Positions 2 to 3,657 of a stretch of DNA of 59,474 nt are shown piece after piece. The first letter of the stretch is position 1; the number at the start of each line of letters is the position of its first letter. The translations under genes were made by a program, and so were the position numbers. The notes beneath the pieces were generated by a model. That model was not told the DNA's origin, made no database searches, and saw only the letters and a program-made list of their open reading frames with translations. The DNA comes from an uncultured Erysipelotrichaceae bacterium (GTDB taxonomy: Bacteria; Bacillota_I; Bacilli_A; RF39; UBA660), in contig CAOJNP010000004.1 of NCBI GenBank assembly GCA_948439995.1, positions 1 through 59,474 on the forward strand, written 5' to 3'.

Positions 2-181
2 CAAGTAAGACAGATTGGATCATGGTATCAAGACGAAGCCTGGTTTGTCTATACTACTGAACCTTGGTTTATACGTGGTCATGAGTTTCTTGGTGGAGCT
101 TGTGTTGGAGTGTTTGCTTTGGGTCATTCTCTTGGTAGTATGTTTTCATGGGCTGGTTTTCGCGTCGTGCTAGCGCTTTAG
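2..181 (+). CDS. DGR target (variable) protein, C-terminal fragment
   Basis: The gene is cut by the window edge; 59 codons remain, ending in TAG. The frame reads GSWYQDEAWFVYTTEPW, then a glycine-rich stretch with GVFA, and ends GFRVVLAL. A PW...R...G..GVFA...GFRVVLA scaffold is typical of the C-type-lectin or formylglycine-enzyme-like fold diversified by DGRs, whose variable residues form the ligand-binding face. Nearly the whole fragment is variable repeat. The retroelement genes follow downstream on the same strand. The N-terminal part, and so the cellular location, cannot be seen. Confidence 0.85.
   Translation, partial: QVRQIGSWYQDEAWFVYTTEPWFIRGHEFLGGACVGVFALGHSLGSMFSWAGFRVVLAL
41..164 (+). 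repeat. DGR variable repeat (VR)
   Basis: These 124 nt match 2941-3064 with only four differences, at 122, 123, 143 and 144. At all four the downstream copy has A and this copy has G, G, T and T. Substitution only at template adenines is the signature of DGR mutagenic retrohoming, so this is the recipient and 2941-3064 the template. The changes turn two Asn codons into Gly and Phe. Identity ends at CGCG; the VR continues TCGTG where the template copies read ATAGT. Confidence 0.85.
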
Positions 182-186
182 CGCTA
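171..186 (+). other. Hairpin at the VR 3' end
   Basis: TAGCGC (171-176) pairs with GCGCTA (181-186) around a TTTA loop; the target stop codon lies inside. A short GC-rich hairpin or cruciform with a tetraloop just downstream of the VR is a known DGR requirement, for example in Bordetella phage, where it stimulates target recognition. None of the downstream template copies has this sequence, which fits a recipient-only signal. Confidence 0.6.
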
Positions 187-713: not shown

Positions 714-1100
714 ATGATGAGTAAAATTTATGAAAAATATCTTGCATTAAAAGAAAGTGATCCAGATAAATTATATTTATTTCGTTGTGGAAACTTTTAT
801 ATCTTTTTAGCAGATGATGCTGATTTTATTAATAATTATGTTGTATTAAAACGAACAAAATTTTCAAAAGAAGTGATGAAATGTGGTTTTCCCGTGGGAA
901 GTAAAGAAGAATATTTAAAAGTATTTGAACATCAAAATTTAAAAATTGAAGTAATTGAAAATCCATTGTTGCCAGTAGAAATTAGTGAACGAGAAAAATT
1001 TGTTGTAAATTATTTAAAAAATATAGAAATCAATATGCTTACACCGATTGATGCAATTAATAAATTAAAAGAATTACAGGAGATGTTTTATGAATCATAA
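714..1100 (+). CDS. DGR accessory protein, MutS-domain-I-like
   Basis: The 128-aa protein resembles the N-terminal mismatch-recognition domain of MutS: an early YLALKESDPDKLYLFRCGNFY stretch parallels the MutS 'YLELKEKYPD..LLFRVGDFYE' motif, then a GFPVGSKEEYLK segment matches the 'GVP.H....YL..L' part. The clamp, lever and ATPase domains are absent. MutS-like small proteins are known accessory genes in some DGRs; the role is unproved. GGAGG lies just upstream of tandem ATGs, and the gene overlaps avd by 11 nt, so it is part of the retroelement operon. Confidence 0.65.
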   Translation: MMSKIYEKYLALKESDPDKLYLFRCGNFYIFLADDADFINNYVVLKRTKFSKEVMKCGFPVGSKEEYLKVFEHQNLKIEVIENPLLPVEISEREKFVVNYLKNIEINMLTPIDAINKLKELQEMFYES

Positions 1101-1464
1101 AGAAGAAACAAAAACTGTAGAAGATTTAATTATCTATAAGCAATATATTGAATTAATTTATTATACCGAAAATATATTAATGAAATATCCAAAATGTGAA
1201 AGATTTGCATTAGCAAGTACGATTAAAAATGCTACTTATGAGGGAATGCGATGTGTTATAAATGCATTTAAAGAATATAATCGTGATCAAAAATTATCGA
1301 ATTTAAATCATTTAGATACGACTTTAAAAATGATTAAAGTTATGATCAGAGTATCTTACAAAAAAAGATATATTAATGCAAAAAATTATACAGCATGGGG
1401 GAAAAAACTGGCTAATTTGGGTAACTTGCTTGGAGGATGGATGAAATCATGCCTAAAACAATAA
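1090..1464 (+). CDS. avd: Accessory variability determinant (Avd), four-helix bundle
   Basis: The 124-aa, Lys/Tyr-rich helical protein has size, composition and position typical of Avd. Avd forms a pentameric barrel that binds the reverse transcriptase and the template RNA and is needed for mutagenic cDNA synthesis. The central segment ALASTIKNATYEGMRCVINA and the ending with a conserved Trp (AWGKKLANLGNLLGGWMKS) fit the family (23S rRNA intervening-sequence-like or Avd-like fold). It overlaps the gene before and the reverse transcriptase after it, which suggests translational coupling. Confidence 0.8.
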   Translation: MNHKEETKTVEDLIIYKQYIELIYYTENILMKYPKCERFALASTIKNATYEGMRCVINAFKEYNRDQKLSNLNHLDTTLKMIKVMIRVSYKKRYINAKNYTAWGKKLANLGNLLGGWMKSCLKQ

Positions 1465-2477
1465 GAAATGTTTATGATGAAAAATTAACATTTATTAAAC
1501 TTTTAGAGGCTCATGAACGCGCAAGTAAAAATAAAAAAAATCATAAAGATGTGATTTTATTTGAAATGGATTTAGAAAGTAACATTGCGAATTTATTACA
1601 TAAAATAAAAACAGGAACTTATCGTATGGGGAAATATCATGAATTTTATGTGTATGAACCAAAGCAAAGACTGATTAAAGCACTACCTTATGTTGATCGA
1701 ATTGTGCATCAATGGTATGTAGAAGAATTTATAAAACCATATATGGCACCCCGATTTATTTTTACTAGTTTTGCATGTATTGAAGAAAGAGGTGCCCATA
1801 AAGCAGTGGATTTTTTACAGAAATATATGAGAATAATGAAACGAAATTATGGCAATTATTATATTTTAAAATGTGACATCAAAAAATATTTTTATAATAT
1901 TGATCGTAACATTTTATTTCAAATTTTATCTCGTTATATTTCGGATAAAAAATTACTTGATTTTACAAAGTTATTATTATTTGATGAACCAGAATCTATT
2001 GGAATTCCAATTGGAAATTACACGAGTCAGTATTTTGCCAATATTTATTTAAATGAATTAGACCATTATGTGAAGGAGAAACTAAGAGTCAAATATTATT
2101 TAAGATATATGGATGATTTTATTTTGCTTTGTAAAACAAAAGAAGAAGCAAGAGAATATAAGAAGATTCTTGAAGAATTTCTTTCTTTTAAATTACATTT
2201 AGAATTTAACAAAAAAACTAGATATTATCCAAATAGTATGGGAGTAGATTTTTGTGGATATAAAGTTTTTGAAACACATCGTTTAATACGAAAAAGAAGT
2301 AAAGATAAAATGCGACGTCACATTAAAAAGTGGAATAAAAAGTATCGTTTAGGAACTTTAGATTTAAAAGAAGTAGAACAAAGTTGGAATGCGTGGCTTG
2401 GACATATTAAACATGCAAATTGTTATACTCTTCAAAATCGTTATCATGATTTAATGGAGTTTCGAGACATCTTTTAG
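1449..2477 (+). CDS. DGR reverse transcriptase
   Basis: The RT domain shows CDIKKYFYNID (catalytic Asp, about residues 142-152), then IGNYTSQYFANIYLNELD (about 188-205) and the catalytic YMDD box (about 220-223). IGNxxSQ in place of the QGxxxSP of group II intron and retron RTs is diagnostic of DGR RTs, which misincorporate opposite template adenines. The 342-aa length fits; there is no maturase or endonuclease domain. GGAGG at 1432-1436 favours ATG 1449 over ATG 1437, which would touch the RBS. It overlaps avd. Confidence 0.93.
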   Translation: MPKTIRNVYDEKLTFIKLLEAHERASKNKKNHKDVILFEMDLESNIANLLHKIKTGTYRMGKYHEFYVYEPKQRLIKALPYVDRIVHQWYVEEFIKPYMAPRFIFTSFACIEERGAHKAVDFLQKYMRIMKRNYGNYYILKCDIKKYFYNIDRNILFQILSRYISDKKLLDFTKLLLFDEPESIGIPIGNYTSQYFANIYLNELDHYVKEKLRVKYYLRYMDDFILLCKTKEEAREYKKILEEFLSFKLHLEFNKKTRYYPNSMGVDFCGYKVFETHRLIRKRSKDKMRRHIKKWNKKYRLGTLDLKEVEQSWNAWLGHIKHANCYTLQNRYHDLMEFRDIF

Positions 2478-2528: not shown

Positions 2529-2768
2529 ATGGTGAATAAAATGAATTTATATTATCAAAATGAGACACTTTTTATTGATGTAAATGGTATTTTAGATGAA
2601 GAACATATGAAATATTTAAAACGAAAAATCTTTCGAATTGTAGATGATTATGATATTAATCATATTATTCTTAGAAGTTATCCTAATAATTTAGAATATA
2701 AAAAAATGTTTCAGCAAATAAAAAAAGAATATAATCAAAAATATACGGGATATTTTGTCATAAGATAA
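2529..2768 (+). CDS. Small STAS-like protein next to the DGR RT
   Basis: This 79-aa protein follows the RT by about 50 bp. The segment LFIDVNGILDEEHMKYLKR and the following hydrophobic IINHIILR-type strand resemble the beta-helix pattern of STAS domains (anti-sigma-factor antagonists such as SpoIIAA), but the usual phosphorylatable Ser region is not recognisable and the protein is short. ATG 2529 and ATG 2541 are both possible; no strong RBS is visible. A regulatory or accessory DGR role is inferred only from position. Confidence 0.45.
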   Translation: MVNKMNLYYQNETLFIDVNGILDEEHMKYLKRKIFRIVDDYDINHIILRSYPNNLEYKKMFQQIKKEYNQKYTGYFVIR

Positions 2769-2802: not shown

Positions 2803-2941
2803 TTTAGTAATATTTTTCTAAATATATAGTATGCTTTTTTCTTTCATGTAGTAAGAATTCTTAGAGTGGTTTCGCAGAAATTTATTAAATTATTTGAAAA
2901 TTTAAATTTTAATGTTATATTTATTAGGGATTACGATAAGT

Positions 2942-3064
2942 GGTTTGTCTATACTACTGAACCTTGGTTTATACGTGGTCATGAGTTTCTTGGTGGAGCT
3001 TGTGTTGGAGTGTTTGCTTTGAATCATTCTCTTGGTAGTATGAATTCATGGGCTGGTTTTCGCG
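2942..3064 (+). repeat. Template repeat copy A (TR-A), donor of the upstream VR
   Basis: 123-nt core, 97% identical to the VR of the target gene; every difference is an A here (3022, 3023, 3043, 3044). Read in the target frame it gives the PWFIRG...GVFAL...AGFR scaffold with Asn at the two changed codons, then DSNYDK and stop instead of VVLAL. Only 19 of 124 bases (2941-3064) are A, low for a template repeat and for this genome. A 72-codon frame runs through it from a GTG at 2866 without an RBS; I treat that as non-coding. Confidence 0.8.
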
Positions 3065-3238
3065 ATAGTAACTATGATAAATAAAGTTTAAAATTAATTT
3101 ACGAATTAATAAAGAATTGTCATAGAGTTGTAATTCCATTTCTTCGGAATAAATACATTTAATTATTAAAACAAGATTAGTAAAAATATTCGAACTTTTT
3201 GTTTTATATTTTACTTTGTTTCATGGGATTATAACAAA

Positions 3239-3361
3239 GGTTTGTCTATACTGCTCAGCCTTGGTACACTCGTGGTGGTGTGTTTTCAGTCGGCATTGGT
3301 GCTGGAGTGTTTGCCATTCATCCTAATCATGGTAGAGTGGATCTGGCTTATGGTTTTCGCG
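3239..3361 (+). repeat. Template-like repeat copy B (TR-B)
   Basis: Same 123-nt length and scaffold as copy A (FV.T..PW..R...GVFA...GFR) but different at most variable-position codons, reading for example QPWYTRGGVF and IHPNHGRVDLAYGFR. An in-frame TAA just upstream (TTATAACAAAGG context) shows it is not translated from the flank. It is followed by the same 25-nt tail and AT-rich hairpin (3390-3396/3401-3407) as copy A. It could be the template for another target gene, or a stored variant. Confidence 0.7.
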
Positions 3362-3534
3362 ATAGTAACTATGATAAATAAAGCTTAAAATTAATTTACG
3401 AATTAATAAAGAATTGTCATAGAGTTATAATTCCATTTCTTCGGAATAAATACATTTATTATTAAAACAAGATTAGTAAAAATGTTTGAACTTTTTGTTT
3501 TATATTTTATTTTGTTTCATGGGATTATAACAAA

Positions 3535-3657
3535 GGTTTGTCTCTACTGTTCAGCCTTGGTTTCTCCGTAGTGGTGGTCATTTTATTGGATTGGATGCCG
3601 GAGTGTTTGCCATTGGTCGTGCTTTTGGTAGTGTGGATCCAAACATTGGTTTTCGCG
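3535..3657 (+). repeat. Template-like repeat copy C (TR-C)
   Basis: Third 123-nt copy, preceded by the same 3'-flank sequence as copy B. It encodes the same scaffold with a different variable-residue set (QPWFLRSGGHF, AIGRAFGSVDPNIGFR). Its 3' tail differs from A and B after CGCG (GTTTTATACTATGATAA), so the array unit is broken here. No start codon or RBS serves this frame. Confidence 0.65.

Follow-up and report, generated by a model that had tools for sequence, protein, structure and literature searches.

The window, 59,474 nucleotides long, is contig C4 of a gut-bacterial MAG (G000) of 1.14 Mb in 52 contigs, 90.6% complete. Downstream of an RT gene it carries three tandem copies of a repeat, with hypervariable cores between nearly identical linkers. 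In the usual description of a DGR (diversity-generating retroelement), a single template is protected and unlimited diversity thereby stays available, and the classical DGR of the BPP-1 type has one A-rich, constant TR (template repeat). The question raised by this locus is whether its A-poor copies are DGR templates at all and, if so, whether they form a library of stored variants or are templates that were themselves overwritten by mutagenic cDNA, the two readings put forward in the original prediction. All sequence data used here are MAG consensus from incomplete genomes with contig breaks inside repeats, and the window itself begins at such a break, 40 nt 5' of a VR (variable region).

The order in the window is target-gene 3' end, MutS domain I protein, Avd, RT, a 79-aa ORF and cores A, B and C (Table 1), the VR being located at the 3' end of the target gene. 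The RT is of the DGR type, based on the motifs IGNYTSQ and YMDD and the match to PDB 8ub7, which we take to be the BPP-1 DGR RT. The accessory protein is of the Avd type, with a score of 81.2 bits against NF033474 (cut-off 80) in addition to the bAvd match. The MutS domain I protein (window 717-1100) is a stand-alone DGR accessory, with similar ORFs 5' of Avd in loci L067, L068 and L157. The 79-aa ORF (window 2529-2768) directly follows the RT, matches no Pfam family and has a weakly SpoIIAA-like start; a similar ORF also follows the RT in L067 and L068 (L068 11124-11345; L068 RT 61% identical). The 6-bp stem of the candidate hairpin in the window was not better than shuffles (z -0.15), whereas its counterpart in L067 was strong (z -4.2). 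At two remote VRs a hairpin downstream of the VR was absent.

Table 1. Positions of the DGR features in the window.
Feature	Coordinates	Strand	Evidence
Target gene 3' end, open at contig start	2..181	+	ORF ...GSWYQDEA-WFVYT..GFRVVLAL-stop; same context in the other VR genes of G000
VR	41..163	+	97% identical to copy A; 4/4 differences at A of copy A
Short inverted repeat 3' of VR, candidate target hairpin	171..186	+	6-bp stem in DNA fold
MutS domain I accessory protein	717..1100	+	Pfam MutS_I E 1.3e-11
Avd accessory protein	1090..1464	+	Pfam bAvd E 9e-21; NCBIfam NF033474 above cut-off
DGR RT, sole one found in G000	1437..2477	+	RVT_1; best PDB match 8ub7 E 6e-47
GGGATTA motif upstream of TR core A	2927..2933	+	sequence; recurs upstream of many cassettes
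TR core A	2941..3063	+	template of VR 41-163; nt 4-77 identical to C15 VR
TR-RNA 3' element of copy A	3065..3210	+	model R1, 73.6 bits
TR core B	3238..3360	+	closest TR to C37 VR 5' block; 3' block identical to C49 cassette
TR-RNA 3' element of copy B	3362..3506	+	model R1, 75.0 bits
TR core C, terminal, without full RNA element	3534..3656	+	sequence; 3' block common to C47 cassette

The predicted tandem array was confirmed: cores A, B and C are real, each 123 nt long, and are TRs of a DGR. Its reported properties were recovered as well, with linkers (3065-3237 and 3362-3533) that are 97% identical, a scaffold conserved in all three cores, and hypervariable cores with 97% (A), 66% (B) and 68% (C) identity to the VR at 41-163. 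All three are A-poor, with 19, 18 and 16 A of 123 and two, one and one AAY codons, respectively. Judged by sequence, copy A is still acting as a template though A-poor, having A at all four positions that differ from the VR, the four being the adenines in its two AAT codons. A structured RNA element is present 3' of copies A and B, not C. The proposed genome search for VRs matching copies B and C was successful for B (the 5' block of a VR on contig C37) and found none for C. Without the RNA element and a matching VR, copy C is only a candidate template. Chance can be excluded as the origin of the arrangement, since three sister MAGs, having as many as 18 copies, show it too.

The differences at template adenines that are expected between TR and VR in a DGR were found beyond the window pair. 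An L067 VR of unusual length differs from the array member of the same length (member 2) at ten positions, all of them A (p 5e-8). When changes at A were forgiven, one template fully explained five VR 3' segments from four genomes; forgiving C, G or T instead explained one VR 3' segment, which has no differences. A-only changes were seen in the 3' segment of the C37 VR derived from a C49 cassette (5/5) and in that of a G005 VR (4/4). Faithful copying without base-directed mutation, by which silent-cassette conversion would be recognised, was not found, the differences being adenine-only. Many VRs had no matching template in the assemblies.

Related cores are spread over many contigs of G000 and form two classes. 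The G000 set comprises ten template cassettes in four arrays, one DGR RT and 14 VR-domain genes. Three cassettes each are located on C4 and C49 and two each on C47 and C3, which places three arrays off the window contig. The RT was the single match in a genome search and no second DGR RT was found in G000; the arrays on C47, C49 and C3 thus have no RT of their own. The 14 VRs are at gene ends in the context ...SWYxDEA-core-..VLAI followed by the stop, whereas the ten template-like cassettes have no target-gene context, and target-gene flanks were found on none of them. No frameshift disrupts the reading scaffold in their cores, most of which lie outside any gene. One constant A-rich TR, typical of DGRs but not strictly defining, was not found in G000, where the ten TRs are dissimilar with 1.5 AAY codons each. 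No Pfam family was assigned to two target proteins, and an NCBIfam and PDB sequence search of one gave no match. The VR gene on C15 (L020 3943-4656), an ORF of 237 aa against 644 aa for the C17 gene, adjoins an RNA polymerase subunit gene and is possibly a silent or truncated target.

Several VRs are mosaics. In the C37 VR, nt 4-33 are nearest to copy B, with three differences of which two are at A, nt 34-78 are identical to a C3 cassette (seven differences to the next best template), and nt 76-123 are from the C49 cassette mentioned above. Three templates, each from a different locus and copy B among them, seem to have contributed to this VR. The C15 VR equals copy A exactly over nt 4-77 and then diverges; no known template accounts for its nt 78-96 or for a single base in the 5' block of C37. 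A VR of the sister genome G002 also joins two templates. Together with the C37 VR it indicates, from sequence, that segments of a silent library are transferred to an expressed site. The reading of the array as a library of stored variants is supported by VRs elsewhere that match particular cassettes, such as the C37 5' block and copy B. Homing in BPP-1 is fixed at the 3' end (the integration site) and short homology is enough for the 5' join (PMC3240598), so that mosaic VRs of this kind would arise from partial homing events in succession. Alternatively, the RT could switch templates.

Sequences immediately 3' of the cassettes can be aligned as a three-helix element (alignment A2, 34 sequences) with compensatory changes in 19 of the 23 predicted consensus pairs. 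Model R1 matches follow copies A and B and most cassettes of the sister species; in relatives outside the genus (L069, L075 and L157) they adjoin the TR. The element usually occurs in these relatives in one copy, whereas it is multicopy in this genus. Since R1 matches occur both here and beside the TRs of relatives, the cassettes constitute TR units that include the RNA part normal for TRs of this clade. A comparison with Rfam gave no match. The element may act in RT or Avd binding or in priming, a role for which BPP-1 is the model. Model R1 also offers a means of finding templates of this clade far from the RT.

In all three sister MAGs, whose RTs are 83-87% identical, tandem template cassettes are located near the RT: 18 in L067 (G004), 11 in L066 (G003) and 13 in total in G002, most of them in L065, where some units have shortened linkers. 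The array of 18 is interrupted by an ORF of 450 aa resembling an ATPase (L067 6810-8162). G001, of the same genus and 90% complete, has no RT and no R1 match; its 11 core-like matches may be remnants of a lost DGR. In DGRs outside the genus (RT identity of at most 62%) the identified TRs have 9-15 AAY codons and for the most part are A-rich and single. No comparable array was found outside the genus in a coarse repeat survey of 102 DGR loci, and none of this kind was seen in the loci of viral relatives (viral RTs at most 53% identical). The repeats 3' of the RT in L068 were considered as a second template array and rejected, being coding repeats; the interval from RT to rpsB in this locus (L068 11445-16194) has ORFs with internal repeats, and the same interval in the window has the array. 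L071 was also rejected as a long array. Additional repeat copies are present there, and two of them match the element weakly. These two matches (L071 11104-11224 and 16612-16748) are on the strand opposite the RT, with repeat copies nearby, and the locus may be a DGR with two TRs outside the genus.

The templates themselves showed signs of turnover. Mosaic runs among TRs exceeded those of all 200 permutations in four species, the G000 set in this test including four VRs. Core identity was hardly related to linker identity in G000 (r = 0.10) and G004 (r = 0.01), with r = 0.40 in G003, and six unit pairs of G000 with 93-98% identical flanks have cores that are 67-83% identical. The linkers beside cores of this divergence are 94-98% identical. 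In several variable codons the third base is kept and the first two vary, as a change from AAY to NNY would give; triplets of this type numbered 17 in frame versus 8 and 4 out of frame, although the phase test was modest. AAY codons per TR, 9-15 outside the genus, number 7-8 in G003 and G004, 2.8 in G002 and about 1.5 in G000 and G005. The core turnover unlinked to linkers, the AAY to NNY pattern and the AAY depletion speak for templates overwritten by mutagenic cDNA. The adenine enrichment in isolated TR-TR differences gave a divided result, in counts that are not fully independent per site: it agreed with overwriting in G004 (45/60 involving A versus 0.47 expected by composition) and G000 (9/12 versus 0.34), but was absent in G003 (3/16), the third of the three species tested. 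Differences in the flanks showed no adenine excess. The readings as stored library and as overwritten templates are compatible, and the sequences support both. Overwriting may have proceeded either by cDNA homing into TRs or by recombination from VRs or other TRs.

The arrays, the RNA element, the adenine-only TR-VR differences, the mosaic VRs and TRs and the linker-independent core turnover probably reflect a chromosomal multi-template DGR, in which a heritable, pre-diversified library feeds mutagenic retrohoming and the templates are themselves overwritten. Tandem cassette arrays, each unit consisting of a TR core and a structured 3' RNA element, would serve one RT/Avd set, partly beside the RT and partly in trans from other loci. 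The cassettes would be transcribed, and the RT would make cDNA from the RNA of one cassette, with errors at adenines. This cDNA would replace the 3' part or all of the VR at the target-gene end, with a crossover in the constant scaffold, and repeated 3'-anchored events from different cassettes would give rise to mosaic VRs. Mutated sequences of the same pool would overwrite templates, as cDNA, whereby adenines are consumed and variants stored.

Mosaic VRs, A-poor templates and tight scaffold homology would also result from silent cassettes and ordinary RecA-type gene conversion with an idle or irrelevant RT, as in vls and pilS, and the long identical blocks (C15 nt 4-77 and C37 nt 34-78) fit such a process. 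It is nevertheless unlikely here: informative 3' segments differ only at template adenines, which is the mutational signature of a DGR, RT and Avd are intact, and the cassettes keep a covarying RNA element for which plain gene conversion would have no obvious need. This element, conserved with compensatory changes, likewise makes it very improbable that the arrays arose by tandem duplication of a single TR or of the 3' end of a target gene and are now decayed and functionless. Copy C without RNA element, the shortened linkers of some L065 units and the few AAY codons left in the G000 templates would suit decay, but the cassettes carry no target-gene flanks, their scaffold is free of frameshifts though most cores are outside genes, and particular array members are matched by VRs.

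The library could instead have been captured from VRs, recombination returning successful mutated VRs to the array and the templates being mainly stores. The AAY content in G000 is VR-like (1.5 in cassette cores versus 1.3 in VRs) and the AAY to NNY pattern in TRs would follow, but in the closest pairs the A is in the TR, not in the VR, and we regard this course as rather doubtful. With these sequences it is inseparable from cDNA overwriting, and the likelihoods assigned to it and to the multi-template DGR overlap because the two differ in the template-rewriting step alone.

The system shares with the classical DGR of the BPP-1 type the RT and Avd, the TR-VR pair, the adenine-directed differences and the VR at the gene 3' end, but its templates number 10 to 18 or more, differ from one another, are depleted in A and have recombined; in G000 most of them are on contigs other than that of the RT. 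The single-TR DGRs of related Bacilli and Clostridia (L069, L075 and L157) have the same RT/Avd/MutS_I module where examined, the same TR 3' RNA element and a similar VR scaffold; their one TR is located between target gene and accessory genes, whereas the arrays of this genus are 3' of the RT and elsewhere. More than one template sequence has been reported for Stenotrophomonas, with two TRs (PMC6642488), and for T. denticola, with strain-level TR types (PMC4891356), but those cases concern few TRs or different strains. In the open-access papers searched, no description was found of already diversified templates kept as a long tandem library. As in vls and pilS antigenic variation, an expressed site is rebuilt segmentally from a silent library with conserved joints; here, however, an RT system and adenine-directed mutation go with the transfer.

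The system links adenine mutagenesis with cassette-based antigenic variation. Tentatively, it may be a two-level repertoire generator, in which RT-driven shuffling of dispersed inherited cassettes is combined with the writing back of mutated products, so that past variants are stored. The DGR template is here neither single nor protected, and variants would accumulate in it, allowing memory and combinatorial assembly, which makes the need for template integrity in DGRs testable.
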